Of a stretch of DNA of 64,000 nucleotides, positions 8,267-62,619 are shown piece by piece. The position numbers were made by a program, and so were the translations under genes. The notes beneath the pieces were generated by a model, which saw only the letters and a program-made list of their open reading frames with translations, did not search any database and was not told the origin of the DNA. The stretch's first letter is position 1. Every line of letters starts with the position of its first letter. This stretch comes from Salinibacterium sp. SWN167. Lineage in GTDB: Bacteria; Actinomycetota; Actinomycetes; Actinomycetales; Microbacteriaceae. Where the stretch lies: contig NZ_JADYWU010000002.1 of the NCBI RefSeq assembly GCF_015864665.1, forward strand, positions 248,001 to 312,000. Reading direction: 5' to 3'.

Positions 8267-8281
8267 CGAGTTGAGAGCTGG

Positions 8282-10667: not shown

Positions 10668-10669
10668 GG

Positions 10670-44910: not shown

Positions 44911-44982
44911 TTGTATACCTAAACCACCAAACCATGTTCTACTGGAGGTGACATCGCGCGATTTCCCCTAAATTGTATGCAG
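44911..44982. promoter_or_regulatory. Pair of GTATAC-type operators upstream of the MFS gene
   Basis: ttgtatacct (44911-44920) and the weaker ttgtatgcag (44973-44982) have centres 62 bp apart. They match the palindrome found at the other promoters of the catabolic island. Candidate binding sites for the FCD-GntR regulator encoded at 46335-47108. Confidence 0.6.
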
Positions 44983-45023
44983 GGAAATGGACGCGGTGAA
45001 GAATTCGACAGAAGAGAGAACGA

Positions 45024-46274
45024 ATGGTTAGGGCGCGGCTTCCCAAAGAAGTGTGGATCGTATCCCTGATAGGGTTCATCGTCACGCTGGGGTTCGGAGT
45101 CATCGGGCCGTCGCTCCCGGCGCTCGGCCGCGAGTTCAATGCTGGCACCACTCTTATGAGCCTGGCCATTAGCGGTTTCGCTGCCGCCCGTCTCATCACG
45201 AACTTGGCGTTCGCCAAATACCTCGACCGGCTTCGACTCCGAACGGTTCTGTGGGTCGGCCTTTTGGTCCAATCGGTGTGCAGCATTATCGCGGGCTTGT
45301 CTCCTGATTATCTCGGCTTTATCACGTTCAGAACCATCAGCGGTGTCGGTAGCGCGGCGTTCACAATCGCATCCTCGGCGCTGCTGCTCGTGCTGGCTCC
45401 CGTCGCCGTGAGAGGCCGGGCCATGAGCGTCTTCGCCAGTTCAACGGCGTTGGGGACAGTGGCAGGCCCAGCCCTTGGCGGCCTGCTTGCCATTTTCGAT
45501 CCGCGGTTGCCTCTTCTCGGCTATGGCGGTGCGCTGGCCCTAGCATCCGCGGTCACTGTGGTTTTGCTCCGCTCTGCACGTGATGTAAAAGCGGTCCCCG
45601 CCGAGGTCGCTCCCGAAGGGGGAGTAATCGGTGGTCGTAGAGCTGCTTTTGCCGCGATCTTTTCCGATCGGCTCTTCGTCGCCGCTGTTGCATGTCAGGT
45701 TCTAGTGGGGTGGGTTTTCTATGGAATGCGCACTACCACTCTGCCGCTCAACCTCTCCAGCATCGGGTACTCGGTAGGCGTCATTGGACTGTTGCTCTCG
45801 ATTTCTGCAGTTCTGCAGATCGTCGGGTCATCCACTGGTGGTACCATCTCCGACCGAATCGGGCGCATTAAACCCCTCGTCGTCGGACTCGGTCTCGCTT
45901 TCTTAGCAGCCGTCGGCTTGAATTTTTCGGAGTACTTCACTATTGCGGTCATCACGTTCATGACTTTGGGACTTGCGGGTGGCCTCATCGCGACAGCCGC
46001 TATCTCTCTTTTGGGCGATTCCAAGGTCGGCCGTTCTGGATTTGGTCTCGCGGCGTACTGGGTTGGAAGCGACCTTGCCGGAATCCTTGGGCCGCTCGTT
46101 AGCGGCTTGCTCGCTGAGAGCTTGGGCTTCGGGGCCGCCTATGTAGTCGCTGCAATGCTCGTGGTGACGACGTTGATATTCGTGCTCCGGGCGGGTCGAT
46201 CTTTGGGCCCTACCTTCCCTGGCGCAAACCAAACCGGGCCGACCGCTCCGTACAACCGGCCGGAACTGGGTTAG
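45024..46274 (+). CDS. MFS transporter (12 membrane segments)
   Basis: A 416-aa major facilitator. Twelve hydrophobic segments; the motif A-type loops are AKYLDRLRLRTVLWVGLL and GTISDRIGRIKPLVVGLG. AGAGAG precedes the ATG. It is convergent with the GntR gene and controlled from a promoter with two GTATAC-type sites, so it probably moves the island's substrate or a pathway intermediate. Direction of transport is not evident. Confidence 0.82.
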   Translation: MVRARLPKEVWIVSLIGFIVTLGFGVIGPSLPALGREFNAGTTLMSLAISGFAAARLITNLAFAKYLDRLRLRTVLWVGLLVQSVCSIIAGLSPDYLGFITFRTISGVGSAAFTIASSALLLVLAPVAVRGRAMSVFASSTALGTVAGPALGGLLAIFDPRLPLLGYGGALALASAVTVVLLRSARDVKAVPAEVAPEGGVIGGRRAAFAAIFSDRLFVAAVACQVLVGWVFYGMRTTTLPLNLSSIGYSVGVIGLLLSISAVLQIVGSSTGGTISDRIGRIKPLVVGLGLAFLAAVGLNFSEYFTIAVITFMTLGLAGGLIATAAISLLGDSKVGRSGFGLAAYWVGSDLAGILGPLVSGLLAESLGFGAAYVVAAMLVVTTLIFVLRAGRSLGPTFPGANQTGPTAPYNRPELG

Positions 46275-46334
46275 AGCAGCACGCAGCTTCGTCGCCGATA
46301 AGCGGAGCCTGTGTGTAGTGCGCGGCGCTGGGGC

Positions 46335-47108
46335 CTAGTCGTCAGTCAGCGGAAGCGTTGACAATACGTTGGCAAGACTATTGTGGAGATGTACAGCCGT
46401 AGCGTGCACCGCGAGAGCTTCGTTTTGCTCGAGGATCGCTTCGACGATGAGGAGGTGCTCCTCGGTAGCGCGTTGAAGTCGACCGGGAACGGAATGAGCA
46501 TTGCGTCGGACTCGAGCGAGGTGGCCCCGCAGAGTGGTCTGAGCATTCCGCAGGTAAATGCTATCCGCGGCCTGATCGATGGCGAGATCCAGTGCGTCAG
46601 CAAGAAAATAAGGACGTGGCTGATCGAGACCTTCTGGTTCGGTCTCACTTGGTCCGGCAAGGAAGTCTGCTCGCAACTTTTCGAAAACGATTGGATCTCG
46701 TTTGCGTGCCGCCAGCCTGGCAGATTGTGCCTCGAGCGCTTCGCGTAGTTCGAAGAGCTCGATGACGTTGGCGCGCGAGAGGCTTGACACGGCCGCGGTT
46801 CTTCCATTGACGGTGTCAACTAGCCCCTCTGCCGTAAGGCGAGAAAGAGCCTCACGAACCGGAGTCCGTGAGACGCCGATGCGTGCGGCGGTTTCCACTT
46901 CACCGAGAGGCGTGCCGGGCTGCAGCCGCCATTGAATGATGTCATCCCGCAGTCGACGATAGGCAGTTTCACTAGCACGCATAGGAGTTATACTAGCGCT
47001 CGGTTTCCCCCGAGCACTCTTTTTGCTTGTGCGTGGAGGCAAGCGAGGTTGCTCGCCGTTTTTTCCCGATTCCGGAGTTTCGCGCTTTTCTCGCTTTAGC
47101 GAAGGCAT
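46335..47108 (-). CDS. GntR-family regulator, FCD-type; probable repressor of the catabolic island
   Basis: A 257-aa regulator with a basic leader (about 1-40), a winged helix (AYRRLRDDIIQWRLQPGTPL, then ARIGVSRTPVREALSRLTAEGL, about 49-95) and an all-helical FCD effector domain (ELFELREALEAQSARLAA onward). The metal/ligand histidines of FCD domains are partly present (TEEHLLIVEAIL, AVHLHNSL). It is the last gene of a DUF35-thiolase-GntR unit whose promoter has two GTATAC-type sites, so it would be self-regulated. FCD-GntR proteins often bind TNGTNNNACNA palindromes, which the TTGTATACAA sites fit. Start at 47108 is uncertain; 46982 is an alternative. Confidence 0.85.
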   Translation of the reverse strand: MPSLKREKRETPESGKNGEQPRLPPRTSKKSARGKPSASITPMRASETAYRRLRDDIIQWRLQPGTPLGEVETAARIGVSRTPVREALSRLTAEGLVDTVNGRTAAVSSLSRANVIELFELREALEAQSARLAARKRDPIVFEKLRADFLAGPSETEPEGLDQPRPYFLADALDLAIDQAADSIYLRNAQTTLRGHLARVRRNAHSVPGRLQRATEEHLLIVEAILEQNEALAVHATAVHLHNSLANVLSTLPLTDD

Positions 47109-47118
47109 CGCGAGCGCG

Positions 47119-48276
47119 CTAGTTCTCTTTGTTGCTGAGCACCAGGCTGCCAGCGGCGCCGAACATCATCCCCACTCCCTGAACGAAACTGATCTCGACA
47201 TCAGGAACTTGCGCAGCGGCTTCGCCGCGAAGCTGGCGTACGGCCTCTTGGATGGCGAACATGCCGTATTTGCCGGTGTGAGTGTAAGAGAGACCACCGC
47301 CATTGGTATTCATGGGTAACGAACCACCGGCACGCGTGTGACCTTCGCGAATAAACGCGCCAGACTCTCCGCGGCCCACGAAACCTGTGTCTTCGAGCAT
47401 GTAAAGAGGAAGGTGCGCGAAAGCGTCGTAGAACATCGCGTGATCGACGTCGGCGCGTTCGATGCCTGCTGTCCGAAATGCTTCATCGCTTGATCGGCGG
47501 AACGCGCCGAAGCTGTCGAGATCATCCATCTGCGAGATGATGGCGCTTTCTGACGACTCTCCAGACCCGAGCAGATAAATCGCCCGGTTAGCGGAAGGAA
47601 GGTCTTTGGCCCGTTCCGCGCTCATCATGACGAGCGCGCCGCCGCCATCCGTTACAACGCAGCACATATCGCGCGTAAAGGGGTACGCGACGGGGGGTGC
47701 GTCGAGCACCTCGTCAACGGTGATGGGAGTCTGGCGAAGCGCTCGAGGGTTGCGCTCCGCCCACGAGCGCTGTGCTGAAGCAACTTCAGCGAGATCTCGC
47801 CTGGACATTCCTCGAGACTCAAGGAAGCCCATGACGGGAAGGGTGAAGCTCGAGTACGGGGCGAGGGCGCCATAGGGGTGTTCGAACTGTCCGGCCAAGG
47901 AAGACGGGTCGCCTACGTAGGGCTTAGTGCCGACACGGGATCGTCCTGATTCACCGTGCGTAATGAGCACGACGTTGGCTGCGCCAGAAGCAATGGCGGA
48001 AGCGGCGTGGCGGACGTGCAGCATAAAACTGCACCCTCCGACCGAAGTGCCGTCGAGCCACCGCGGACGAATTCCGAGCATGTCGGCAACTTCATACGCC
48101 GGCATTACATCGTTAGCGATGCCATCAACATCCGCCGGGGTTAGGCCGGCGTCAGCGAGCGCGTTAAGGGCGGACTCTACGTGCAGCTCAAGAACAGACA
48201 TATCCGGGATGGTCCCGAGACGGGTGGATTCTGAAGCGCCAACGATTGCTACATCGCCACCGTGCATCGAGGTCAT
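47119..48276 (-). CDS. Thiolase-superfamily protein (SCP2/Ltp2-like acyl-CoA thiolase or aldolase)
   Basis: A 385-aa thiolase-fold enzyme. A cysteine at the nucleophile position is seen (VGGCSF, C82). The HDCF loop of SCP2 thiolases reads FYDAFAHLPL, and the GHPLGATG loop reads NTNGGGLSYTHTGKYG; the latter pattern resembles Ltp2-type proteins. Those act with a DUF35 partner in retro-aldol cleavage of side-chain hydroxyacyl-CoAs. Here the DUF35 gene is directly upstream, overlapping by four bases. It may therefore be a thiolase or an aldolase; sequence alone does not settle it. Confidence 0.8.
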   Translation of the reverse strand: MTSMHGGDVAIVGASESTRLGTIPDMSVLELHVESALNALADAGLTPADVDGIANDVMPAYEVADMLGIRPRWLDGTSVGGCSFMLHVRHAASAIASGAANVVLITHGESGRSRVGTKPYVGDPSSLAGQFEHPYGALAPYSSFTLPVMGFLESRGMSRRDLAEVASAQRSWAERNPRALRQTPITVDEVLDAPPVAYPFTRDMCCVVTDGGGALVMMSAERAKDLPSANRAIYLLGSGESSESAIISQMDDLDSFGAFRRSSDEAFRTAGIERADVDHAMFYDAFAHLPLYMLEDTGFVGRGESGAFIREGHTRAGGSLPMNTNGGGLSYTHTGKYGMFAIQEAVRQLRGEAAAQVPDVEISFVQGVGMMFGAAGSLVLSNKEN

Positions 48277-48689
48277 TTGTTTCTCACTTCTACTGGGCCA
48301 AACACCGGCAGCATCTGGTCGCCTCGCTCTTCGAAGCTCACATATAGAGCCATCCCAATAGAGATGGCTTCGGGGCGCGGTTCCACGCCGATGAGGGTGC
48401 AGACCATTCGCGGCCCCTCTTCCAGATCAACGAGTGCGATGACTTGGGGTTCCTTCGTCTCGAAGAACGGCAACGGGCGGTAGTTGATGATGTAGGACGC
48501 GAGCGTTGCTCGTCCAGAAGTCGTCACCCACTCCAAGTCTGACGACTGGCAGTACCGACAAATCGGTCTGGGATAGAAAAAGTGGCGGCTGCATGCGCGG
48601 CAGCGTTGCACCCGCAATTCACTGTTTCGCGTTCCGTCCCAGAACGGAGCTGTCTGGGGAGTGGGTAGGGGTACCGGCCCGGCTGTCAT
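48273..48689 (-). CDS. Zinc-ribbon OB-fold protein (DUF35 / ChsH2-C-terminal-like)
   Basis: A 138-aa accessory subunit. The rubredoxin-like zinc ribbon CRACSRHFFYPRPICRYC (about residues 26-43) precedes an OB fold. Such proteins bind thiolase-like enzymes and are needed for their activity, as in Ltp2-ChsH2 and related complexes. The ATG at 48689 follows AAGGG. First gene of the DUF35-thiolase-GntR unit, with two operator-like sites 52-81 bp upstream. Confidence 0.85.
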   Translation of the reverse strand: MTAGPVPLPTPQTAPFWDGTRNSELRVQRCRACSRHFFYPRPICRYCQSSDLEWVTTSGRATLASYIINYRPLPFFETKEPQVIALVDLEEGPRMVCTLIGVEPRPEAISIGMALYVSFEERGDQMLPVFGPVEVRNK

Positions 48690-48740
48690 GGTTGCCCTTC
48701 GACGACGATGTCGGCGCGTGATCCGCGCTGCTGACGCCCA

Positions 48741-48770
48741 CTGTATACGAATTTCACGTTCTGTACACAA
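48741..48770. promoter_or_regulatory. Two GTATAC-type sites upstream of the DUF35-thiolase-GntR unit
   Basis: ctgtatacga (48741-48750) and ctgtacacaa (48761-48770), centres 20 bp apart (about two helical turns). Read leftward they precede the DUF35 start at 48689. Likely self-regulatory sites of the GntR protein. Confidence 0.6.
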
Positions 48771-48946
48771 AAAGCCCAAAAGGGGCGCACGAGTGAGGAT
48801 TATCCGACCCCTCTCGCGTTGCGACTATTGGGTTAAGAAACTCCAATTCAGGCCGAAAAATCAAGAAAATTGTTCAGTTTCACGATGGCACGATGGTCAG
48901 TCCTAATGTCTGCGCGCGTGGGAAGATAAATTCGACAACCTGATAA

Positions 48947-48976
48947 TTGTCGCCAATTTGCAACAGTTGTATACAA
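48947..48976 (+). promoter_or_regulatory. Promoter of the P450 operon with perfect TTGTATACAA operator over the -10 box
   Basis: TTGTCG (48947-48952), a 17-bp spacer and TATACA (48970-48975) fit a -35/-10 pair. The -10 lies inside a perfect palindrome TTGTATACAA (48967-48976). A repressor bound here would block RNA polymerase. The first gene starts 64 bp downstream at 49040. Confidence 0.65.
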
Positions 48977-49039
48977 GTTGCCGAATGACGGCTATTGTTC
49001 TGCTAAGTCAAAGATAAAACAGAACACAAAGGAGTGATT

Positions 49040-49957
49040 GTGGGAATTCTCGAAGGTAAAGTAGCCATCATTACGGGCGGCGGACGGGGCATCGGCGCTT
49101 CCATTACCCGCGCCTTCGTCAAAGAAGGCGCATCGGTCGTAGTGAATGACCTCGGTTCCACCGCAGATGGCACCGGGCTTGACGCTGGGCCTGCAACAGA
49201 CATCGCCGCTGAACTCAACGTAAATGGGCTCCGCGTTGTCGCCGATGGCGGAGATATCGCTGATGTCGCGACCGGCGAGCGCCTGGTCGCCGCAGCTATT
49301 GAGAACTTTGGAAAGCTCGACATCGTGGTCAACGTCGCCGGCATTCTTCGCGACCGTATGATTTTCAACCTCGAAGAAAAAGACTGGGACGCGGTCATCC
49401 GTGTACACATGAAAGGCGTGTACAGCACCGTGCGCCCTGCATCCGCCTACTGGCGTGAGCAGCGCAACCCCGAGGGAAACTACCGAATCATCAACTTCAC
49501 CTCGGTATCGGGCCTTCACGGTTCGCCGGGACAGCCCAACTACGCTGCAGCGAAGATGGGCGTCGTCGGACTTACTCAGTCGCTCGCGCAGGGATTGGCT
49601 CGCTACGGCGTAACGGCCAACGCAATCGCACCAGGCGCCGCGACTCGTCTCGTCGCTACGATCCCGGATGGGAAAAAGATGGGTGAGGCGCCGGCTGACG
49701 AGAGGGTTATGTCGCCGGACAACATTGCACCTGTTGCCGTGTATCTCGCTTCGGATCGCTCAGATTGGATGAGCGGCCGAGTTGTCGCTGCCGCCGGCTA
49801 CAAGGTCGGACTGTACAACGTGCCCGAGCAGATTGCGGAAATCTCAGGCGACGAGCCGTGGGCAGTTCAGGATCTTGCCACCGAGATCGAGAGCACGTTC
49901 CGCCCCCTCGCTGAGGGCCTCGCTCCGAGCCCGTTCTCGTCCCAGACAAAGAAGTAG
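49040..49957 (+). CDS. Short-chain dehydrogenase (MFE-2/HSD17B4-like 3-hydroxyacyl-CoA dehydrogenase)
   Basis: A 305-aa NAD(P)-dependent oxidoreductase. GTG at 49040 is used since AAAGGAG lies five bases before it. The coenzyme loop TGGGRGIG (about 12-19), NVAGIL, and the catalytic Ser-Tyr-Lys (NFTSVSG, NYAAAK) are seen. The segment VVVNDLGSTADGTG and the extra C-terminal stretch recall the dehydrogenase domain of multifunctional enzyme type 2, which oxidises 3-hydroxyacyl-CoAs. It heads the operon that continues with the P450 genes; a MaoC hydratase gene, the other half of MFE-2 chemistry, is nearby. Confidence 0.88.
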   Translation: MGILEGKVAIITGGGRGIGASITRAFVKEGASVVVNDLGSTADGTGLDAGPATDIAAELNVNGLRVVADGGDIADVATGERLVAAAIENFGKLDIVVNVAGILRDRMIFNLEEKDWDAVIRVHMKGVYSTVRPASAYWREQRNPEGNYRIINFTSVSGLHGSPGQPNYAAAKMGVVGLTQSLAQGLARYGVTANAIAPGAATRLVATIPDGKKMGEAPADERVMSPDNIAPVAVYLASDRSDWMSGRVVAAAGYKVGLYNVPEQIAEISGDEPWAVQDLATEIESTFRPLAEGLAPSPFSSQTKK

Positions 49958-49994
49958 CTCGTTCAACGAGCACAAAGAAATAGGAGCAAAGTCA

Positions 49995-51269
49995 ATGACG
50001 ACAGTTTATTCCACAGAGCACGAGTTGACGACCGACGAAGACATCTCCAGCGAAGATTTCTGGAGAAAGAGTTTTGAACAGCGAGACGAAACATTCGCGC
50101 GACTTCGCAAGGATAATCCCGTCAGCTGGCACCGATCGCTTGAGGTTCCGACAATGCCTCAGGAGGTGCATGGGGAAGCTGGGTTCTGGGCTGTAACTCT
50201 GGCCGAAGACATCCGCTTCGTTAGCGAGAACAACGAGATCTTTAGCTCCGCTGAGCCAGGACACATCAGTTTGGCGCCTCGTTATCCTGGGCTTCTGATT
50301 CCGCCGACATTCCTCAGCATGGACCCTCCATTTCATACCCGATACCGCCAGATCATGAGCCGGGCCTTCACTCCCAAGGCAGTCGGTGTGTTGAGCGTCA
50401 AGATTAAAGAACGAGCCGCACAGATTGTCGACCGGGTCGTCGGCGCTGGTGAATTCGACTTCGTACACGAAGTGTCGGCAAAGCTGCCGATGCTGACTGT
50501 TGCGGACATGGTGGGTGTTCCAGAAGACCTCGTAGGGGCCTTCGCGCAAGCCGGCGACAATCAGGTTGGTGCGAGCGACCCTGACATTCTTCCGGCCGGA
50601 GTGAATCCGTTAGATTTCGTGCTGCAGCAAATCGCAATTCTGCAGGAGATTGGCGTCGACATTGTCAATCACCGCCGCAAGTACCCTGCTGCAGACATTG
50701 CGACGGCACTGGCAAATGCCGATTTCGACGGCAAACCGTTGAGCGATGACGACATCGGCGCAATGATGCTGTTGTTGAGCGTCGCCGGCAACGATACGAC
50801 GAAGCAGACGACGTCACGGACTGTTGTGTCACTTGACCGTAACCCGGACCAGCGCGACTGGCTCATGGAAGACTACGAAGGCCGTATTGCTGGGTCGATC
50901 GAAGAGTTCGTTCGCCATGCATCGCCCGTCATTGAGTTCGCGCGCACCGCACGCGAAGACATCGAGCTGCGTGGACAGAAGATTCTCAAGGGCGACAAGG
51001 TCGTCATCTTCTACGGATCGGGAAACCGTGACGAACGCGAATTCGAGGATCCTCACAAGTTCGACCTCACCCGTGGACGCAGCCCACACGTTGGTTTCGG
51101 TGGCGGTGGAGTGCACTTCTGTCTCGGCAATGGTGTCGCGAAGGCTCAACTGAACGCGCTCTTCAGTGAGATTACGACCAAGCTGCCGAACATGGAGGTT
51201 GGTGAGCCAGTGAACCTGTACAGCAATTTCATTAATGGCGTCAAGAACCTTCCAGTGAAGGTGAGCTGA
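49995..51269 (+). CDS. Cytochrome P450
   Basis: A 424-aa soluble bacterial P450, probably the pathway's first hydroxylase. The I-helix motif SVAGNDTTKQ (about 255-265), the K-helix ExxR (EEFVRHASPV) and the heme loop HVGFGGGGVHFCLGNG (Cys about 377) are intact. The ATG at 49995 follows TAGGAG. Ferredoxin and ferredoxin reductase genes follow at once, making a complete class I system. The sequence resembles P450s of isoprenoid and steroid side-chain catabolism only in general terms; I cannot assign a CYP family or substrate. Confidence 0.93.
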   Translation: MTTVYSTEHELTTDEDISSEDFWRKSFEQRDETFARLRKDNPVSWHRSLEVPTMPQEVHGEAGFWAVTLAEDIRFVSENNEIFSSAEPGHISLAPRYPGLLIPPTFLSMDPPFHTRYRQIMSRAFTPKAVGVLSVKIKERAAQIVDRVVGAGEFDFVHEVSAKLPMLTVADMVGVPEDLVGAFAQAGDNQVGASDPDILPAGVNPLDFVLQQIAILQEIGVDIVNHRRKYPAADIATALANADFDGKPLSDDDIGAMMLLLSVAGNDTTKQTTSRTVVSLDRNPDQRDWLMEDYEGRIAGSIEEFVRHASPVIEFARTAREDIELRGQKILKGDKVVIFYGSGNRDEREFEDPHKFDLTRGRSPHVGFGGGGVHFCLGNGVAKAQLNALFSEITTKLPNMEVGEPVNLYSNFINGVKNLPVKVS

Positions 51270-51271
51270 TC

Positions 51272-51496
51272 ATGAGTGACGTTCACACCGAAGCGGCACG
51301 CATGAGGATCGTTGTTGACCGCGGCCGCTGCACTGGCATTGGCATCTGTGAATCCTTGGCACCCGAGCACTTTGAAGTCAGTGACGATGGGTCACTGCTG
51401 CTGCTCAGCGAAACAGTCACGGATGCTGATCTAGAAGACGTAGAAACGGCCGTGCGCTCGTGCCCAGCAAAAGCGCTCAAGCTAGAGGTAATCTGA
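51272..51496 (+). CDS. 3Fe-4S-type ferredoxin for the P450
   Basis: A 74-aa ferredoxin with three cysteines in the pattern C20-x5-C26 ... C64-P (CTGIGIC and SCPAKAL). The position that would carry a fourth ligand is Ile23, so a 3Fe-4S cluster is expected, as in many actinobacterial P450 partners. It starts three bases after the P450 stop and ends three bases before the reductase gene. Confidence 0.93.
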   Translation: MSDVHTEAARMRIVVDRGRCTGIGICESLAPEHFEVSDDGSLLLLSETVTDADLEDVETAVRSCPAKALKLEVI

Positions 51497-51498
51497 AA

Positions 51499-52734
51499 AT
51501 GACTAATGAAGCAGGAGCCGGGCTCGTTGTAGTTGGAGCGAGCCTGGCCGGCCTTCGCGCGGTTGAATCCGCGCGACGTGGTGGGTATACCGATTCCATT
51601 ACACTCATCGGGGCCGAGATCTATCTCCCGTACGACCGCCCTCCGCTGTCAAAAGGATTCCTCGCTGAGGGAGCGTCTCCCGACTACTTCCTCACAGAAG
51701 AGGAACTTCGCACTGAGCTCAACGTAGATCTTCGGTTGGGTACTTTCGTCGACGGCGTTGACACGGAACGAAAGGTGGTCACGGTTGGCGATCAAGAGAT
51801 TCCCTATGAACGCCTCATCATTGCAACGGGCGCAGAGCCACGGGTACTTGCGCACCTTCCCGCGATTGACGGCATTCTGACGCTACGTACCCTCGAGGAT
51901 GCGCGTCAGATCCGCGATGCAATCGGCGAAGGTAGCAACCTTGTTGTCATCGGTGCAGGCTTCATCGGTTCAGAGATCGCGTCCTCGGCGCAGGCCAGAG
52001 GTGCGACGGTCACGGTGATCGAAGCCGCACCTGTTCCGCTAGTGCGTGCGGTCGGCGAAGTTGTGGGAAAGGCAATCTCTGCGCTCCACGGGAGAAACGG
52101 AACTCGCCTGCTCACCAGCGTACAAATCGATGAGGTAATCGGAACGGATCATGTCGAGGCGGTGCGCCTCAACAACGGCGAGATCATTCCTGCCGATCTC
52201 ATTATCGTGGGAGTAGGAGCCGCACCAGCAACCAGCTGGCTTGCCGACTCGGGCCTCGAAATGAGCCCTATTGACGGTGGCATCGTCTGCGACGCCTTCA
52301 TGCAGACATCTGCTGAGGGTGTGTACGCGGCAGGAGATGTCGCTCACTGGCCGAATGGGCTCATGGATTCTACGATGCGCCTCGAGAATTGGACGAATGC
52401 CGCAGACCAAGGCACGCAGGCCGCGACTAACGCGCTCTTCTCTGAAAAGGCAAAGAAGTACGAAACTGTGCCTTACTTCTGGAGCGATTGGTATGGCAAT
52501 CGGATCCAGTTCGTAGGAACGGCAATTGCCGACAGCGTGAGTTTTGTCTCCGGTGGTCCCGACGAAGACAAGTTCGTCGCGCTCTACCGTGCAGGAGACC
52601 GCCTCGTCGGGGTAGCGACGCTGAACGAGCCACGACGAATCATGAAATACCGTCGTTTCATCGCTGAGCGCGGCGACTTCGATCGTGCAGGCGACATTCT
52701 TCAGCCCGCCACAGCGGCATCCTCCAGCCGCTGA
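51499..52734 (+). CDS. FAD-dependent ferredoxin reductase (putidaredoxin-reductase type)
   Basis: Passes electrons from NAD(P)H to the ferredoxin. A 411-aa two-dinucleotide-domain flavoprotein with VVVGASLAGLRAVESARR (FAD), YDRPPLSKGFL, the NAD loop VVIGAGFIGSEIASSA and VYAAGDVAHWPN (FAD ribityl). The ATG at 51499 follows directly on the ferredoxin stop. Its place after P450 and ferredoxin completes the electron chain. Confidence 0.93.
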   Translation: MTNEAGAGLVVVGASLAGLRAVESARRGGYTDSITLIGAEIYLPYDRPPLSKGFLAEGASPDYFLTEEELRTELNVDLRLGTFVDGVDTERKVVTVGDQEIPYERLIIATGAEPRVLAHLPAIDGILTLRTLEDARQIRDAIGEGSNLVVIGAGFIGSEIASSAQARGATVTVIEAAPVPLVRAVGEVVGKAISALHGRNGTRLLTSVQIDEVIGTDHVEAVRLNNGEIIPADLIIVGVGAAPATSWLADSGLEMSPIDGGIVCDAFMQTSAEGVYAAGDVAHWPNGLMDSTMRLENWTNAADQGTQAATNALFSEKAKKYETVPYFWSDWYGNRIQFVGTAIADSVSFVSGGPDEDKFVALYRAGDRLVGVATLNEPRRIMKYRRFIAERGDFDRAGDILQPATAASSSR

Positions 52735-52780
52735 CCCCACCCCCATTTCAACAGTATTCAACAAGGAAGTTGTCAAAGAA

Positions 52781-53872: not shown

Positions 53873-53891
53873 TCGAGGGGGGGAAACAATC

Positions 53892-55440: not shown

Positions 55441-56799
55441 ATGAGCATGACTACCGCTGTTCGAAAAAGACGGAGCCCGTGGTGGGTGGTATTTGGCGGG
55501 GGTGTCGCTGGCGCGTTCGGTCCCGGTCCGGTCGTTCTCAGCACCCTCGGTATCTTTGTTATCCCGATCACTGATGAGACGGGGTGGGGGAGGACTGTCG
55601 TTACTGGCGCCTATTCTGTGGCGGCTATCGGCATGGCCATCGGACTTCCCATCGTCGGCCGTATGGTTGACAAGTATGCGTTGCGCCCGGTCCTTGTGAT
55701 TTGCTGGACCGGCTTCACAGCCTTCACCGCGGTCATCGCGCTTACGCCGGCTGATAACGTCGTACTTTTCTTGGTACCTTTCTTCCTGCTTGGCTTCTTC
55801 GGAGCAGGAACATCGCTCACCTTCACCAAGGCGTTAATGAGTTGGTTCGACAACAAGCGGGCACTCGCCGTCGGTGTCATGGCAGCGATTACTGGGCTCG
55901 GTACTTCGTTCGTGCCCATCATCGCGGGTGTATTTATTGGCAACTACGGTTGGCGTACCGCCTACCCGCTGATGGCTCTCATCGCCTTGGTTGTCGCGCT
56001 CACCATGACCTTTGCGTTTGTCCGCGTGCGTGCCGAGCGCAGTGTTAAGGGGCGACTAGTTACCGAGTCCGTCGAAGATGGCGAGGTTGTCAGCCTTGAA
56101 TTGCCAGGGCTCACCTTGGGAGAGGCGCTGCGAGGGCGCCACTTCTGGATGCTCGCGCTCGCACTTGGTTTTGTCGGTGTCACAATCGTTGGCTTGCAAG
56201 TTCACTTGGTGCCCATGATGTCGGACCGCGGGCTTGGTGTGCCGCAAGCGGTATTGCTGGTGACGATATTCGGGCTCGCATCGCTCGTTGGGCGACTTGT
56301 TGGGGGCGTGCTCATCGACAGGATTGATGGGCGCATTATTGGCCCGATCGTGATTATCGCTCCGGCCATCGGCATTTTCTTCCTTCACACCCCCTTCTTG
56401 AGCGCGGCGATCGCGGTCGGTCTCATCGGGCTTGCGTACGGAATTGAAGCGGACTTGATCGCTTTCTTTGTCAGCCGTTACCTCGGCATGAAGCACTTCG
56501 GACGTATCCTCGGCGTCGTGCTTTCTGCCTTCCTGCTGGGAACCGCGTTCGGCCCGCTCTTGCTCGGTCTTGCCTACGACACATTCGGGTCGTACGAGCC
56601 GGTGATTCCGGTACTCGCAGGTGTACTCGTGGTTTCTGCGATCACGATTGCGTTTCTCGGTAAGTACCCCTACCCCGCTATCGAAGGCTTCGATAAGGTC
56701 GCGGCGACAGATGAAATGGCCGCTGCTGAAGCGCTGAGCAAACTTGCTCGGCAGGAGGACTCGCAGGCAGAGGCAAGTGAGACTGTGCTGACCAAGTAG
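55441..56799 (+). CDS. MFS transporter, oxalate/formate- or monocarboxylate-type
   Basis: A 452-aa transporter with twelve membrane segments; WWVVFGGGVAGAFGPGPV at the N-terminus and the loop GRMVDKYALRPVLVICW after segment 2 are typical of the OFA/monocarboxylate branch. The C-terminal 45 residues are polar and Glu/Ala-rich. Part of the P450 operon by spacing (109 bp after the aldehyde dehydrogenase); it probably moves an acid substrate or product. Confidence 0.82.
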   Translation: MSMTTAVRKRRSPWWVVFGGGVAGAFGPGPVVLSTLGIFVIPITDETGWGRTVVTGAYSVAAIGMAIGLPIVGRMVDKYALRPVLVICWTGFTAFTAVIALTPADNVVLFLVPFFLLGFFGAGTSLTFTKALMSWFDNKRALAVGVMAAITGLGTSFVPIIAGVFIGNYGWRTAYPLMALIALVVALTMTFAFVRVRAERSVKGRLVTESVEDGEVVSLELPGLTLGEALRGRHFWMLALALGFVGVTIVGLQVHLVPMMSDRGLGVPQAVLLVTIFGLASLVGRLVGGVLIDRIDGRIIGPIVIIAPAIGIFFLHTPFLSAAIAVGLIGLAYGIEADLIAFFVSRYLGMKHFGRILGVVLSAFLLGTAFGPLLLGLAYDTFGSYEPVIPVLAGVLVVSAITIAFLGKYPYPAIEGFDKVAATDEMAAAEALSKLARQEDSQAEASETVLTK

Positions 56800-56814
56800 T
56801 ACCCGTTTGTTTGA

Positions 56815-56851
56815 GTGCGCCGCGCAGGAATCAGTTTTTTGCGCGGCGCAC
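56815..56851 (+). terminator. Hairpin between the MFS and HtaA-domain genes
   Basis: gtgcgccgcgca (56815-56826) pairs perfectly with tgcgcggcgcac (56840-56851); the 13-nt loop contains six T. It lies just ahead of the ribosome site of the next gene and may terminate or attenuate the P450 operon, or protect its 3' end. Confidence 0.65.
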
Positions 56852-56876
56852 ATCAATACCACTGAGGAGTAACCAT

Positions 56877-57341
56877 ATGTCAGGACCGGTCAGCCCTTAT
56901 TTGGCATGGAATGTAAAAACGGCATTCCGCTCTTACGTTGAAGACGTTGGTGGAACTATCGAGGTGACTGATGGTGCGGCAAAGCAGCAGCAAGCTTTTT
57001 TGTTCCCGTTTGTTGCGGAGGGCGACGGGGTTCTGAAATTCGGTGGAGCGGTTCGGTTTAGTGCCCACGCTGGAGCCATGAACTTGTTGATCTCGGACCC
57101 CTGGGTCCACGTGGATAATGACGGCAGTCGGCTCAGCGTTGCTGGCACAGAGGCCACCCGCACTGCCGGGCTCCGCTTGTTCCTTGCGCAGTTGAGCACT
57201 CCGGCTCACGGCGCCGAGGGGGCCGATGTTTCTTCAGTTCTTCTCGAAGCAGCGTTGCTTTCAGAGGGCGCTGTAGCGTTCGATTTCCGCTACGCGGCCG
57301 GCACGCAGCTCGACCCCGTTCGCCATTCTGTTTCTACGTGA
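56877..57341 (+). CDS. HtaA-domain protein without signal peptide
   Basis: A 154-aa protein made of one HtaA-like domain: YLAWNVKTAFRSYV at the start and the stretch GGAVRFSAHAGAMNLLISDP in the middle match the heme-transport-associated domain of corynebacterial HtaA proteins, including the conserved Tyr and His positions. Those relatives are exported and membrane-anchored; this one has neither signal peptide nor anchor, so it should be cytoplasmic. ATG 56877 follows GAGGAG. Its place beside a P450 operon allows a heme-handling role, or a lipocalin-like role with the hydrophobic substrate; both are guesses. Confidence 0.7.
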   Translation: MSGPVSPYLAWNVKTAFRSYVEDVGGTIEVTDGAAKQQQAFLFPFVAEGDGVLKFGGAVRFSAHAGAMNLLISDPWVHVDNDGSRLSVAGTEATRTAGLRLFLAQLSTPAHGAEGADVSSVLLEAALLSEGAVAFDFRYAAGTQLDPVRHSVST

Positions 57342-57407
57342 GCGTCAGAGCAGTTCATTCCTAAATCGAGTTCACCTCTCCCTGTAGCGGCGTCGCGAGT
57401 TCCGGCG

Positions 57408-57478
57408 ATGCATACATTTCTCACGATTCAGGCGGTTTGAGCCTCAATTTCTGAATTGAATGCGCTGAATGTATACAA
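57408..57478. promoter_or_regulatory. Pair of GTATAC-type sites upstream of the MaoC gene
   Basis: atgtatacaa (57469-57478) is a good match and atgcatacat (57408-57417) a weaker one; centres are 61 bp apart. The MaoC start is at 57528 after AAAGGAG. Confidence 0.55.
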
Positions 57479-57527
57479 AAAGTCTAAATCCGGCTAATCT
57501 GGATCCATCAAACAAAGGAGTTCGATC

Positions 57528-58367
57528 GTGGCCATCGATACGTCATACGTAGGTAAAACTGGCGCCCCGCTGCGGCGCACGTGGGAATCAAAAGATGCAT
57601 TGCTCTATGCGGTCGCTGTGGGCGCGGGTCAGGGCGATGCGTCAGCCGAGCTGGAGTTCACTACAGAGAATTCTGCTGTTCAACAGCGCGTGCTGCCATC
57701 ATTCATTTGTGTCGCGGCTGGCGGACCACTGCCCGACGGCTTCAGCATCGATATGACCAAGATGCTGCACGCGGACATGGGGTTCGAGTTGTTCGGCGAC
57801 TTGGATGCCAGCGGAGACGTCACATCCACCGCTTCGATCACTGGAATTTTTGACAAGGGTTCAGGCGCCCTAGTATCAACCGCTACCGACGTGGTCGACA
57901 CGGCTAGTGGAGAGCTCGTTGCGCGTCTACAGTCGGGAATGTTCGTGCGCGGTGAAGGCGGATTCGGAGGCGAGCGTGGACCCGGCGATGGTTGGGAGCA
58001 GCCCGATCGAGAACCCGACGTCATCATCACCTACGAGACTCGCCCAGAACAAGCACTGCTCTACCGTTTGACTGGCGACCGCAACCCGTTGCACAGCGAC
58101 CCAACATTTGCCGCACGTGCAGGATTTCCGGCGCCGATTTTGCACGGCATGTGCACCTATGGCTTCACCGCCCGAGCACTCCTGCACGGCATCGCGGGTT
58201 CCGATCCGTCGCGATTCGGCAGTATGCACGCACGATTCACAAAGGTCGTTTCCCTCGGGGAGACGCTCACTGTGCGGATGTGGTCGGAGGATTCGGGCGC
58301 CCGATTCCAGACGCTCAATAGTGCGGGCGAAGTTGTGCTCGACCGCGGATCGATGACGCTACGATGA
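57528..58367 (+). CDS. MaoC-family (R)-enoyl-CoA hydratase, double hot-dog
   Basis: A 279-aa hydratase 2 homologue. The N-terminal hot-dog begins with LLYAVAVGAG; the C-terminal one carries the hydratase 2 signature YRLTGDRNPLHSDPTFA (catalytic Asp and His) and FPAPILHGMCTYGF. This is the hydratase half of MFE-2-type beta-oxidation, matching the SDR at 49040. GTG start after AAAGGAG; 4-bp overlap with the CoA-transferase gene. Confidence 0.93.
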   Translation: MAIDTSYVGKTGAPLRRTWESKDALLYAVAVGAGQGDASAELEFTTENSAVQQRVLPSFICVAAGGPLPDGFSIDMTKMLHADMGFELFGDLDASGDVTSTASITGIFDKGSGALVSTATDVVDTASGELVARLQSGMFVRGEGGFGGERGPGDGWEQPDREPDVIITYETRPEQALLYRLTGDRNPLHSDPTFAARAGFPAPILHGMCTYGFTARALLHGIAGSDPSRFGSMHARFTKVVSLGETLTVRMWSEDSGARFQTLNSAGEVVLDRGSMTLR

Positions 58368-60715
58368 GCGTCCGTAAACAGGCCGGGGGCGACGATACGA
58401 GCGCACTGGCAGACATCCGAGTACTCGATCTCAGCACCGGAATCGCGGCGCCCGTCGCGAGTATGTTCCTTGGTGACTTCGGCGCAGACGTGATCAAAGT
58501 CGCCTCGCCTGAACCAGACGTCTACGATTCGCTGCCCGGTGCCGCTGTATGGAATCGTAACAAGCGCTCCGTCGTCATTGATTCGACGGTGGAAGCGGAC
58601 CGAGACTGGTTAGTGGCTGCCATCGGCAACGCGGATGTGTGCATTCTGGGCGCCGCAGACAGCCTAGCGGCCTGGGGCCCGGAGGTTGAGTCTGCGGCTG
58701 CGGCAAACATCAGACTCATCGAGCTTCGAATGCCGCCCTACCTTGACGGTTACGCACCGTGGGAGGGTGAGTCAAATGGTCTCTTGGCAGCATATGGCGG
58801 ACAAGCGATGCGGCAGTCGTCAGTCGCGGGCGGTCCGATCGAGACCATGTCGCCGTATCTCCTCTATATCCATGGCGTGTGGGCAGCGGCATGTTTAGTT
58901 GCTGCGTTGGTCGAACGCACGGTTTCCGGGCTCGGGCAAGTGGTGACGGTCACTGGTGTTCAAGGATTGATCGAGGCAACAGTCACTGCGATGAGCGTCG
59001 ATCCCACCCTGCCTGACCCCTCGATGAAAGTTGGTCCAGCGGGGCGTCATCCTACCTACCGTCAGTTCCGCTGTTCCGACGGTACCTGGATTTCCTGTGG
59101 TGCTCTCGGCCCGAAGTTTGAAACGGGTCTGCTGAAAGCCCTCGGCCTCGACGACATTCTCGCTGACCCAAGAATCGACGGGGTATCAGCTCGAATGGCG
59201 CTCACGGAGAATTTCGAATGGTGTTTGCCAAAACTCGTCGACGCTTTCGCTTCGCGCACGCGGGAGGAATCGCTCGCGCTGCTTTCCAGCATTGGCATTC
59301 CTTGCGGCCCCGCGATGAGCAGGGAAGAATGGCTCGATCACCCACAGATTCGCGGAATCGGTATGCGGGTGGAGATCGACGATCCGGCCCGTGGTCGTGT
59401 CGTAATGCCTGGCTCAGCGATTAATCTCACACGCACACCAGCACGATTCGACCGCCATGCTCCCTCGCATGGCGAACACAACGGCGCCACGCCTTGGAGC
59501 GCTCGTCCCGTTTCTGAGGAGCCGGCGCCCCGTTTCGTTGAGGGCCCGCTCGCGGGATTCCGAGTACTCAATATGGGAACCTTTGTGGCCTCGCCCTACG
59601 CAGGATTCCTCTTGAAGGAACTGGGGGCTGATGTGATCAAGGTTGAGCCACTCACAGGCGACCCATTCCGCGGTTCGGGTTACGCCTACAACAGAGGGAT
59701 GCGCAGTCTTGCGATTGATCTGAAATCTGAGGCAGGGCAGGGCGCGTTCCATCGGCTCGTCAAGGTCAGTGATGTCGTGATCGACGGCATGCGCCCTGGG
59801 GTGATGTCCAGTCTTAATATCGACTACGAGAAACTCGCCGAAATCAACCAAAATATCGTCACGATGTCGCTCTCTGCCTATGGTGAAGGTGGGCCGCTCT
59901 CGCAGGCTCCGGGGGTCGACATGGTCGTTCAGGCGATGAGCGGAATGATGACATCGTGGGGCGGGGAGGATGACCCTGTTGCAAATACGATCGCTATCAA
60001 CGACGTGACTGCAGCCGCGCTCTCTGCGCTCACGTGCGTTCTAGCGCTCTACGACAGGCAGCAAACCGGTCGGGGGCAGCGCACCTGGGACTCGCTGGCG
60101 GCGGTTTCGGTCTTCCTGCAGATGGGAGACATGGTCAAGTACGATGGCCGTCCGGAGCTGGCCGTTGGGCGCAGCGACCTTCGAGGCCTCTCACCAGTGC
60201 AGTCATACTATGAGACTTCGGATGGGTGGATCTACGTTGATTCCACGCTCGTCAAGGGAGGGCCGGCAGCAGCAACCTCGATGCTGGTGTTCGCGGAACT
60301 CATAAACTCAGACACTTCTTCCGGTGACATGGACGCTGTTCGTGAGTCGCTGGCAAAGTCGTTGCGCGAGTTGACGAGCGAGGAGGCGGTGGCTGCTGTT
60401 TCGGCGGCAGGGCTTCGTGCAGTGCAAGCGCGGCCGCTGAGTTCAGTGCTCCGTGATCCACGTTTGCTTGACGCAGAGGCAGTGCATGTGCGCACAGCCG
60501 ACGATAAGAGCAGCTTCATGATGACAGCGCGTTATGCCGGATTCAGTCGGACTCAGCGTCGCGGGCCTTTGAGCCCGGATGGGGTCGGGCAAAGCACGGT
60601 AGCCGTGCTCACAGAAGCCGGGTTCGACGACGACGAGATCACTGCGTTGCTTGAGGTTGGCGCTGTGCGGACGGGCGGCCCTGTGCAGCACGTCTTGCCG
60701 ATCGCGTACCGCTAG
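58364..60715 (+). CDS. Two-domain CaiB/BaiF-type (class III) CoA transferase
   Basis: A 783-aa fusion of two CoA-transferase III domains. Domain 1 (about 15-390) opens IRVLDLSTGIAAPVASMFLG; domain 2 (about 397-780) opens FRVLNMGTFVASPYAGFLL. The catalytic Asp segment PGVDMVVQAMSG is visible in domain 2 only; the matching stretch of domain 1 (LAAYGGQAMRQSS) has no Asp, so the first half is probably structural. Family proteins work as interlocked dimers, and a fusion may mimic that. Likely activates the carboxylate from the aldehyde dehydrogenase step. Confidence 0.88.
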   Translation: MSVRKQAGGDDTSALADIRVLDLSTGIAAPVASMFLGDFGADVIKVASPEPDVYDSLPGAAVWNRNKRSVVIDSTVEADRDWLVAAIGNADVCILGAADSLAAWGPEVESAAAANIRLIELRMPPYLDGYAPWEGESNGLLAAYGGQAMRQSSVAGGPIETMSPYLLYIHGVWAAACLVAALVERTVSGLGQVVTVTGVQGLIEATVTAMSVDPTLPDPSMKVGPAGRHPTYRQFRCSDGTWISCGALGPKFETGLLKALGLDDILADPRIDGVSARMALTENFEWCLPKLVDAFASRTREESLALLSSIGIPCGPAMSREEWLDHPQIRGIGMRVEIDDPARGRVVMPGSAINLTRTPARFDRHAPSHGEHNGATPWSARPVSEEPAPRFVEGPLAGFRVLNMGTFVASPYAGFLLKELGADVIKVEPLTGDPFRGSGYAYNRGMRSLAIDLKSEAGQGAFHRLVKVSDVVIDGMRPGVMSSLNIDYEKLAEINQNIVTMSLSAYGEGGPLSQAPGVDMVVQAMSGMMTSWGGEDDPVANTIAINDVTAAALSALTCVLALYDRQQTGRGQRTWDSLAAVSVFLQMGDMVKYDGRPELAVGRSDLRGLSPVQSYYETSDGWIYVDSTLVKGGPAAATSMLVFAELINSDTSSGDMDAVRESLAKSLRELTSEEAVAAVSAAGLRAVQARPLSSVLRDPRLLDAEAVHVRTADDKSSFMMTARYAGFSRTQRRGPLSPDGVGQSTVAVLTEAGFDDDEITALLEVGAVRTGGPVQHVLPIAYR

Positions 60716-60737
60716 GGGACCAAGCCAGAGTGACTCT

Positions 60738-60774
60738 CTTCCGGCCCAGTACCGCTATGCGGCTGGGCCGGAAG
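60738..60774. terminator. Bidirectional terminator between CoA transferase and aldo/keto reductase genes
   Basis: cttccggcccag (60738-60749) pairs perfectly with ctgggccggaag (60763-60774), with a further ccgc/gcgg inner stem. It stands between convergent genes and can serve both. Confidence 0.8.
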
Positions 60775-60780
60775 CCGAGT

Positions 60781-61626
60781 TTAACCGTGGAGTGAAGCGA
60801 ATTGCTCGTCAGTCAGAGTGATTTCTTCCGCTCCGAGATTTTCGCGAAGATGCTGTTGAGACGATGTACCTGGAATTGGCAGCATGACGTCTGAGCGCTT
60901 GAGCAGCCAAGCGATGGCGACCTGCGCGGGAGTGCTTCCCGTCTCCGATGCAACGCGAACCACGGCGTCTGCCGTCGTGAGGTTGCCGGTATCGAGCGGA
61001 AACCACGGGATGAAACCAATCCCATTGGCTGCGGCGTAATCAAGTACATTCTCGAAGTCGCGGAATCCAAGGTTGTAGCGATTCTGGACGGTGACGATCT
61101 CGGCGACAGCGCGAGCTTGCTCGATTTGCTCGACGGTTACCTCGGAGAGTCCAATGTGACGAATCTTGCCTTCTTGCTGCAGCGCCTTCAGCTCACCGAC
61201 TTGATCCTCGAGTGGAACCGTCGGGTCAACCCGATGCAACTGTAATAGGTCGATGCGTTCGAGGCCGAGGTTGCGCAGGCTTAACTCAGTCTGCTGACGA
61301 AGGTACTCGGGGCGACCAAGGGGGATCCACTGGTTGGGGCCCTGTCGGGTGAATCCAACTTTGGTGGCGATTACGACATCGTTGCGGTAGGGGTGAAGTG
61401 CCTCTCGGATAAGGGCATCGGTGACGTACGGGCCGTAGACGTCTGCGGTGTCGATCAGCGTGACGCCGAGTTCCACAGCGAGTCTGATCACCGCGACGGC
61501 GTCGTCGCGGTTGGTTGGCCAATCCCAAACGCCGGGCCCAGTGAGTTGCATGGTTCCGTAGCCGATTCGACGCACGGGGAGGTCGCCGCCGATTGCTAGT
61601 TGCTGGTTGATCGCTTCGGTGCTCAT
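60781..61626 (-). CDS. Aldo/keto reductase
   Basis: A 281-aa NADPH-dependent TIM-barrel reductase. The catalytic tetrad is Asp and Tyr in LIDTADVYGP, Lys in VIATKVGF and His in LLQLHRVDP. It resembles the YdbC/oxidoreductase group. Divergent from the enoyl-CoA hydratase-like gene, with an operator-like site upstream; AAAGGAA precedes the ATG. It may reduce a keto or aldehyde intermediate. Confidence 0.9.
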   Translation of the reverse strand: MSTEAINQQLAIGGDLPVRRIGYGTMQLTGPGVWDWPTNRDDAVAVIRLAVELGVTLIDTADVYGPYVTDALIREALHPYRNDVVIATKVGFTRQGPNQWIPLGRPEYLRQQTELSLRNLGLERIDLLQLHRVDPTVPLEDQVGELKALQQEGKIRHIGLSEVTVEQIEQARAVAEIVTVQNRYNLGFRDFENVLDYAAANGIGFIPWFPLDTGNLTTADAVVRVASETGSTPAQVAIAWLLKRSDVMLPIPGTSSQQHLRENLGAEEITLTDEQFASLHG

Positions 61627-61648
61627 CGTGTTCCTTTCGATCTGCGTA

Positions 61649-61721
61649 TTGTATACTTTTGCGCCCAGAACGCTAGACTGTTAGGCGTGAATCGCTTAGA
61701 AATTGTTTCATTGGTATACAA
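61649..61721. promoter_or_regulatory. Two GTATAC operators in the divergent AKR / enoyl-CoA hydratase promoter
   Basis: ttgtatactt (61649-61658) and tggtatacaa (61712-61721) have centres exactly 63 bp apart (six helical turns). The first overlaps a leftward -10 (TACAAT) for the aldo/keto reductase; the second overlaps a rightward TATACA 16 bp from the hydratase ATG. Confidence 0.65.
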
Positions 61722-61736
61722 CATCGGTCTCGCGTG

Positions 61737-62516
61737 ATGACGGACGGAAACCTCGCCGTGACGCAGGACTGTGCCGTCGCGACCATCACAATTTCCAACC
61801 CGCCCCGACGAAACGCGATGACGCTATCGATGTGGCAGTCGTTCGAGCCGACTCTGGCGAGGCTAGCGGATGACTCAACCGTCACCGTCGTGGTGATTCG
61901 CGGTGCGGAGGGGCACTTCTCGGCGGGCGCAGATATTGGCTCGCTCGATTCCATCCTTGATCCAAGCGTGGGGTTAGGAGGGTGGGTTTCTCGTGCAGAG
62001 GAGGCGATCGCTGCCTTCCCCAAGCCGACAGTGGCCGCGATCGAGGGGATTTGTTTTGGCGGTGGTTGGGAAGTTGCGGCGGCCTGTGACCTACGTGTGG
62101 CGGCCACGAGTTCAAGTTTGGCCATAACGCCGGCAAAAATTGGCATCATCTACCCGTTGTCGGGCATCACGAGGCTAGTGAATATCGTCGGCCCGGCCCG
62201 GGCCAAGTACTTGCTCTTTACTGGCAATAGCGTCTCGGCTACCGAGGCTTACGAAATGGGATTGATCACTTCGGTCGTCGCGGATGAACATTTCCCATCG
62301 AGCCTTGAGTCGCTCTGTGCCGATCTGGTGGCTAGATCTCAGCTCTCGATTCATTCTACTAAGCAGCTCATCGGCGCTCTCGTGTCAGGCGATGGCGATG
62401 TCGAGCAGCTCTACGCGCGCTGGTGGGAAGAGCTGAAGGTGAGCGAGGACCCCTCGATCGGGGCCGCAGCTTTCGCCGCACGGGAGAAACCTAGGTTCGT
62501 GTGGGGGCGCGACTAG
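61737..62516 (+). CDS. Enoyl-CoA hydratase/isomerase-family protein
   Basis: A 259-aa crotonase-fold enzyme. The CoA oxyanion segments HFSAGADIGSL and GICFGGGWEVAAACDL (first catalytic Glu) are present. The second catalytic Glu is lost: the usual PEIxLG loop reads TPAKIGIIYPLSG. It could therefore be an isomerase, lyase or specialised hydratase. ATG 61737 is used; a GTG at 61734 adds one residue. No clear ribosome site; the transcript may be almost leaderless. Confidence 0.85.
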   Translation: MTDGNLAVTQDCAVATITISNPPRRNAMTLSMWQSFEPTLARLADDSTVTVVVIRGAEGHFSAGADIGSLDSILDPSVGLGGWVSRAEEAIAAFPKPTVAAIEGICFGGGWEVAAACDLRVAATSSSLAITPAKIGIIYPLSGITRLVNIVGPARAKYLLFTGNSVSATEAYEMGLITSVVADEHFPSSLESLCADLVARSQLSIHSTKQLIGALVSGDGDVEQLYARWWEELKVSEDPSIGAAAFAAREKPRFVWGRD

Positions 62517-62546
62517 CTGTCACGCCCTGTGTCGCAAGAATGCATG

Positions 62547-62619
62547 ATGTATACAATCTTGCGTTTTAGGATCCCTGTGAGGATGAATACCCCACATTTT
62601 CAGATTAAAAAGTATACAA
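62547..62619. promoter_or_regulatory. Two GTATAC operators upstream of the second aldehyde dehydrogenase
   Basis: atgtatacaa (62547-62556) and aagtatacaa (62610-62619) have centres exactly 63 bp apart, the same spacing as at the AKR/hydratase promoter. The rest of the 211-bp spacer 62517-62727 holds no gene. Confidence 0.65.

Follow-up and report, generated by a model that had tools for sequence, protein, structure and literature searches.

A 17.7 kb catabolic gene island of Salinibacterium sp. SWN167 carries short palindromes centred on GTATAC, which do look like the common control site of the island and whose repressor was probably borrowed from propionate metabolism. The island lies in a window (the whole stretch of DNA that was analyzed, 64,000 nucleotides) covering positions 248001-312000 of contig C2 in a 3.0 Mb genome of 3 contigs. 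Judged from its sequence, the strongest candidate for the regulator is the GntR protein of FCD type encoded at 46335-47108. We consider it likely that the palindromes are operators of such a co-opted, methylcitrate-type regulator (a VanR-type FCD-GntR), which would bind as phased dimers, perhaps with the DNA looped.

GTATAC palindromes are concentrated in the promoter spacers of the island

The following sites were located, without assignment to a strand; all positions that had been given in the original prediction were exact.

44911-44920, palindrome TTGTATACCT (GTATAC at 44913), member of a 62-bp pair before the transporter gene at 45024
44973-44982, its degenerate partner TTGTATGCAG (GTATGC at 44975; motif score 10.4)
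48741-48750, palindrome CTGTATACGA (GTATAC at 48743), 5' of the OB-fold/thiolase/GntR operon
48761-48770, variant CTGTACACAA, 20 bp from the 48741 site
48967-48976, perfect palindrome TTGTATACAA (GTATAC at 48969) before the SDR-P450 operon, without a partner at five to seven turns
57408-57417, degenerate partner ATGCATACAT of the following site at a distance of 61 bp (GCATAC at 57410; motif score 10.1)
57469-57478, palindrome ATGTATACAA (GTATAC at 57471) before the MaoC/CoA-transferase genes
61649-61658, palindrome TTGTATACTT (GTATAC at 61651), member of a 63-bp pair before the aldo-keto reductase gene (minus strand)
61712-61721, palindrome TGGTATACAA (GTATAC at 61714) before the enoyl-CoA hydratase gene (plus strand)
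62547-62556, palindrome ATGTATACAA (GTATAC at 62549), member of a 63-bp pair before the aldehyde dehydrogenase gene near 62729
62610-62619, palindrome AAGTATACAA (GTATAC at 62612), partner of the 62547 site

GTATAC occurs 80 times in the genome and 84 times in the reversed control. Nine copies fall in the island region, where about 0.4 would be expected (Poisson 8e-10), and eight of these are intergenic; the ninth, at 51585 within the ferredoxin reductase gene, is the only genic copy in the region, as had been claimed. In dinucleotide-shuffled spacers the mean was 0.11 sites and the maximum 2, and eight were reached in 0 of 5000 shuffles. Among 45 of the 80 genomic sites, all on contig C1 and classified with a crude custom gene caller, 12 were intergenic, compared with 8/9 in the island (Fisher 8e-4). 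The genome-wide scan that had been proposed found perfect TGTATACA at six places, namely three in the island, one in the prp promoter, one at C1:547307 within another catabolic locus and one inside a gene (C1:634588, in the open reading frame 8108-11131 of locus L020), while TTGTATACAA at 48967-48976 is the sole exact copy of its sequence in the genome. The excess of GTATAC in the island and its placement in spacers are confirmed by these data; genome counts, intergenic placement and shuffles rule out chance or AT-rich spacers as the source of the sites. The claim that every promoter spacer carries a site held for the five promoter-carrying spacers but not for 46275-46334, 60716-60780 and 51270-51459, of which the first two separate convergent genes and the third is operon-internal.

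The palindromes are paired at whole turns of the helix

In four of the five promoter regions of the island the sites form pairs (44913/44975, 62 bp; 57410/57471, 61 bp; 61651/61714, 63 bp; 62549/62612, 63 bp), two of which have a degenerate partner (GTATGC at 44975, GCATAC at 57410). Altogether the genome holds seven pairs at 61-63 bp: these four, one in its own prp promoter (locus L021, 10356/10418, 62 bp) and two on contig C1. Of the latter, the pair at 16690/16752 of L018 (62 bp) stands ahead of TRAP transporter genes and has an F420-type oxidoreductase gene on its other side, and the pair at 4077/4140 of L019 (63 bp) precedes a hydrolase/enoyl-CoA hydratase/thiolase/OB-fold operon. A whole-genome search for exact pairs at spacings of 36-66 bp returned three, each at 62 or 63 bp, and 0 in the reversed control. 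A strong single site (C1:547307/547308) is located 125 bp before a short-chain dehydrogenase (SDR) gene, within the longest reading of the opposite open reading frame, which encodes a metallo-beta-lactamase fold. By its sites, the regulon seems to be wider than the island and to take in the prp operon and a second locus on C1.

This second catabolic locus (L018:15340-20000 and L019:1-7535; C1 at about 537-550 kb) has the same operators without an FCD-GntR gene of its own, and codes for a TRAP transporter, an F420-type oxidoreductase, a CoA-ester hydrolase, a hydratase, a thiolase, an OB-fold protein, an SDR and a flavin oxidoreductase.

A second GntR gene of the genome (C2:370430-371128) precedes genes for PrpD and for PrpB- and PrpC-like proteins, and its orthologs within the order precede the same genes; PrpD is named from MmgE/PrpD, and the PrpB and PrpC labels are our presumption, with gene order as a basis. 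From 46 GntR matches listed, 37 prp-linked relatives retrieved by region (L067-L103) were analyzed together with L021 and L065; L104 (not prp-linked), the prp copy of genome G005, G014, G090 and the second matches of G052 and G024 were left out. The 67 GTATAC sites of these 39 loci served to derive the motif, and this prp-based motif recovers the island sites. All 39 loci carried the palindrome and a second one nearby, with the best partner at 51 (1 locus), 52 (12), 53 (1), 62 (16), 63 (6), 64 (1), 73 (1) or 24 bp (1), the last being L067, which also has an exact 52-bp pair. A further 16 loci, many of one genus, were held out of motif building. The 13 of them that are prpD-linked had a partner at 52 (8), 53 (2) or 63 bp (3); two of these partners score low (L219, 8.5; L222, 7.7), hence the automated tally of 11. 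No phased partner was detected in the three held-out loci without prpD, two of which show just one strong TTTGTATACAAT. The GntR relatives of L224 and L225, which come from other families and have no prpD next to them, are each accompanied by a lone strong TTTGTATACAAT that lacks a phased partner.

Taken together, 52 of 52 prpD-linked loci were paired, at 51-53 bp in 25, 62-64 bp in 26 and 73 bp in one (about five, six and seven turns), and no spacing of 54-61 bp occurred among them. In shuffled flanks a partner reaching strength 9 was found in 2.2%. The vector strength was 0.96 at a period of 10.5 bp; since periods from 10 to 11 fit almost equally, the distances establish quantisation and do not measure the period itself. 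On the tree, the spacing switched between five and six turns in 11 changes, at least 7 of them forced by well supported branches, and a single turn separates the spacings of the sister genomes G023 and G016. In 99 genomes, 53 exact GTATAC pairs at 36-66 bp were counted, versus 37 in the reversed control; counted manually, 27 of these pairs are at 62-64 bp and 10 at 51-53 bp, spacings being available for the real pairs only. The stretches between the sites look unlike one another by eye in the sequence listings, which bears on whether the pairs are a copied segment.

These data also bear on the idea that the spacers are simply AT-rich and hold ordinary promoters, with GTATAC being nothing more than their -10 region (TATACA/T), which we regard as extremely improbable. 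TATACA would be a fair -10 box and several sites overlap predicted ones, but the spacer shuffles, with their mean of 0.11 and maximum of 2 against eight sites, rule out mere -10 boxes; moreover, the symmetry is exact, phased second copies lie away from the -10 region, dozens of genomes have the same motif upstream of their prp operon, and perfect TGTATACA occurs just six times in this genome.

The island GntR is related to methylcitrate regulators

The protein encoded at 46335-47108 has both a GntR domain (PF00392, 64.1 bits, cut-off 27) and an FCD domain (PF07729, 55.8 bits, cut-off 24.3). PmiR (PDB 7xp0), which we take to be the same protein as PrpR and which reportedly senses 2-methylisocitrate, is its nearest solved sequence (4e-17). 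VanR-type effector domains are defined by six helices; a structure model of the island GntR, of low confidence (mean pLDDT 66, pTM 0.46), shows six longer helices plus a four-residue one, and Foldseek ranked PmiR and then Atu1419 first for it, with a TM score of only about 0.3. In the alignment the recognition helix SRTPVREALSRLT is identical to that of Atu1419, a VanR-type FCD-GntR of Agrobacterium fabrum (PDB 6z74, 6za3), and E70, R81, T82 and R85 are spaced as Glu34, Arg45, Thr46 and Arg49 of that protein. According to the available part of the report on Atu1419 (PMC7797058), its 10-mer ATGTATACAT, the core shared with the island palindromes, was defined by a crystal complex and gel shifts, and Arg45 reads an essential G. 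The attribution of these sites to an FCD-GntR is thereby well supported by sequence, with the helix of Atu1419 and the same palindrome before all 52 prpD-linked relatives. The FCD site that had been quoted, TNGTNNNACNA, did not hold, as it has three bases between GT and AC whereas the island sites have two.

Ten FCD genes were found in the genome, and the recognition helix SRTP(V/L)REALSRL is present in two of their products, the island GntR and the protein of C2:370430-371128, which are 48-50% identical and differ little in this helix (SRTPLREALSRL vs SRTPVREALSRL). A third FCD gene (match at C1:1190909-1191274) has the helix SKTPVREAL, and two TGGTATACCA palindromes flank it at C1:1190044 and C1:1193201 (L183); these give a hint of a neighbouring but distinct code.

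In a midpoint-rooted tree, whose bootstrap had not fully settled, the island GntR is sister to the prpDBC-linked GntR of L065 (a Microbacteriaceae metagenome-assembled genome; 65-66% identity; support 100/99) and groups with L065 and L067 inside the prp-linked clade (96/90), nearer to those than to the prp regulator of its own genome. It does not stand beside prpDBC, its neighbours being the thiolase and OB-fold genes, and the prp-linked GntR is a separate gene. Our reading is that the island GntR would be a methylcitrate regulator recruited by transfer from another lineage.

Because of the second GntR with nearly the same helix, a single regulator for the whole pathway, as originally predicted, is favoured but is not the sole reading, and the regulon seems too wide for the island alone. 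As an alternative, which we consider rather unlikely, the sites of the island and of C1 could be targets of the native methylcitrate regulator (C2:370430-371128), acting either by itself or jointly with the island GntR and tying the pathway to the disposal of propionyl-CoA. Such a role would suit its likeness to the island protein, the 62-bp pair of the same motif in its own promoter, the recovery of island sites by the prp-built motif and the resemblance of the island P450 to enzymes of branched or sterol chains, whose breakdown would give propionyl-CoA. The island, however, encodes a GntR itself, with the sites in front of its operon, and among 26 further same-genus genomes exact non-prp pairs (36-66 bp) were found only in G005, an island-bearing genome, apart from one 47-bp pair in G004. 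Since the island and C1 genes are confined at high identity to SWN167 and G005, this survey of pairs cannot separate the two proteins.

Predicted promoters and a proposed model of repression

Promoters were predicted between the operators of the C1 hydrolase (HIBCH) operon (10/12 matches, the best found) and of prp (9/12); that of the P450 operon and others may overlap an operator. The site of the P450 operon had been placed over the -10 box. This fits TTGTCG-N17-TATACA at 48947-48975, with TATACA at 48970 and 17 bp from TTGTCG, but that match is one of several with equal score.

As the pairs stand at whole-turn distances, a repressor clamping each promoter from both sides is suggested. Starting from the computed sites, their excess, pairing and phase and the family membership of the protein, we infer the binding protein, repression, tetramer or loop and ligand as follows. 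The regulator is most likely the 46335-47108 protein, whose gene closes an operon with such sites of its own, and would be a repressor taken over from the regulators of methylcitrate operons. Two dimers would sit on the same face of the DNA, five to seven turns apart (here about six), flanking or overlapping the promoter, and would grip one another, perhaps by forming a tetramer with a very short loop of DNA. RNA polymerase would be denied access until the repressor is released by some pathway metabolite, candidate ligands being 2-methylcitrate or 2-methylisocitrate by analogy, or an acyl-CoA product. From the sequences we lean towards joint binding of the paired sites; a loop closed by a tetramer appears somewhat less likely than that.

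Alternatively, two dimers could bind without contact, and the whole-turn spacing could stem from a common face relative to RNA polymerase, for example with a roadblock at the start site and an upstream competitor or contact. We find this doubtful. The best predicted promoters are indeed flanked by operators on either side, and FCD proteins are usually dimers, as stated in the available part of PMC12042122; but the position of the promoter relative to the pair seems to vary while the distance between the sites stays quantised, and Atu1419, with the same helix, is described in the accessible text as a tetramer in solution.

Several observations weigh against phased operators of a co-opted regulator. 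In the divergent spacer 48690-49039, the three strong sites (48743, 48763, 48969; 20, 206 and 226 bp apart) form no phased pair. The predicted TRAP promoter (9/12) falls outside its 62-bp pair, and for the MaoC and aldo-keto reductase genes no promoter above the threshold was predicted. The prp-linked relatives are not independent of one another, and L067 was entered as 52 bp in the tree tally though its best-scoring partner is at 24 bp. The two island-bearing genomes are 99.6% identical across the island, so that conservation between them says little. Finally, in both the island and the Prp GntR the canonical first His of the FCD site, presumably one of the metal-binding residues (Asp and three His), is aligned with Asp, two later His being retained, which makes the analogy for the ligand weak.

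Gene content and conservation of the island

The genes of the region are as follows.

45024-46274, plus strand, MFS transporter
46335-47108, minus strand, FCD-type GntR, candidate regulator, 257 aa, closing gene of the OB-fold/thiolase/GntR operon (GntR 9e-18, FCD 8e-15)
47119-48276, minus strand, thiolase-like protein
48273-48689, minus strand, OB-fold/rubredoxin-like protein of ChsH2 type (ATG at 48689)
49034-49957, plus strand, SDR
49782-51269, plus strand, cytochrome P450 (longest open reading frame, within which the true start probably lies; closest solved enzymes CYP268A2, CYP125-type and CYP124)
51272-51496, plus strand, small iron-sulfur ferredoxin, 74 aa, between P450 and ferredoxin reductase
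51460-52734, plus strand, ferredoxin reductase
52685-53872, plus strand, zinc alcohol dehydrogenase
53856-55331, plus strand, aldehyde dehydrogenase
55441-56799, plus strand, MFS transporter
56811-57341, plus strand, HtaA-domain protein (haem-uptake-type domain), final gene of the P450 operon
57528-58367, plus strand, MaoC-type hydratase
58364-60715, plus strand, family III CoA-transferase, 783 aa
60781-61626, minus strand, aldo-keto reductase
61734-62516, plus strand, enoyl-CoA hydratase family protein
62729-64000, plus strand, aldehyde dehydrogenase (start near 62729), extending beyond the window end, 3' part at L015:22-1155

The longest reading frame of the OB-fold gene reaches 48779, which would overlap the operators. 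The P450 operon comprises the genes for SDR, P450, ferredoxin, ferredoxin reductase, alcohol and aldehyde dehydrogenases, transporter and HtaA protein; past the island follow glycerol genes (L015). Breakdown of branched and sterol chains yields propionyl-CoA. Since the enzymes nearest to the P450 act, by their PDB names, on branched or sterol chains, a methyl-branched substrate giving propionyl-CoA would fit; a literature search on the substrate of the pathway returned nothing useful.

A scan of genome contigs with the GntR returned two loci, L064 (Salinibacterium sp. SWN248, with the same island) and the prp locus L065. A search with the CoA-transferase found two further genomes of 394 (38-40% identity), and a plasmid search two partial GntR matches (about 50% identity). 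Conservation of the sites in related clusters had been proposed as a check: 71 differences in 19,256 bp separate the islands of SWN167 and G005, none in the operator 10-mers and one in a flank (57407), but G005 is too close to be informative. Five of the 71 cluster at 48978-49001, directly after the intact perfect palindrome at 48967-48976. Among 99 genomes, the C1 genes for DctP and the hydrolase occur at 98-100% identity in SWN167 and G005 only, other matches being at most 45% identical. Since G005 also has the island, both loci may serve a single pathway.

Comparison with known systems and significance

Like the island sites, those of Atu1419 overlap -10 boxes, with several sites per promoter region, and its tetramer was seen to loop DNA by electron microscopy over 190 bp, in the portion of PMC7797058 that was available. 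Its sites, however, are 190 and 109 bp apart, not 51-73 bp at whole turns as in the island and its prp relatives; its ligand is described there as a methylene-tetrahydrofolate compound and its genes as serving hydroxycinnamic acids. PrpR of Pseudomonas aeruginosa represses the prp genes and is probably released by 2-methylcitrate; its motif, in the accessible text (PMC9765439), is a single ATTGTCGACAAT, and unlike it the island GntR has no prp genes as neighbours. AlkR (GntR/VanR, P. aeruginosa) is likewise a VanR-type FCD repressor of hydrocarbon oxidation genes with a motif over -10 boxes, but in its available description this motif, ATTGTCAGACAAT, has odd spacing and one main site. For the lac repressor, repression follows the helical phase between two operators down to 57.5 bp, and phase-dependent operator pairs at short distance would be shared with it; it belongs to another protein family, and what the available text of PMC1762422 gives are measured constructs from 57.5 bp, not a natural multi-species series. 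In the literature on TGTATACA, methylcitrate GntRs and GntR looping, no report of phased GntR operator pairs was found, most subscription papers being outside the coverage.

With these data a list of motifs becomes a directly testable regulatory geometry. The 52 loci form a natural series of promoters at about 52, 62-63 and 73 bp with nothing between, and such quantised distances allow tests of helical phasing, short loops and repressor oligomerisation on sequences that already exist. More tentatively, and at slightly less than even chances, this GntR branch may seal promoters in short loops that change by whole turns (five to seven), a two-site code carried into a recruited two-locus regulon alongside the methylcitrate cycle. 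For a catabolic pathway with a P450, the analysis names a concrete regulator, its targets and candidate ligands, and it would provide a case of a core-metabolism repressor recruited, operators included, by a newly gained pathway.

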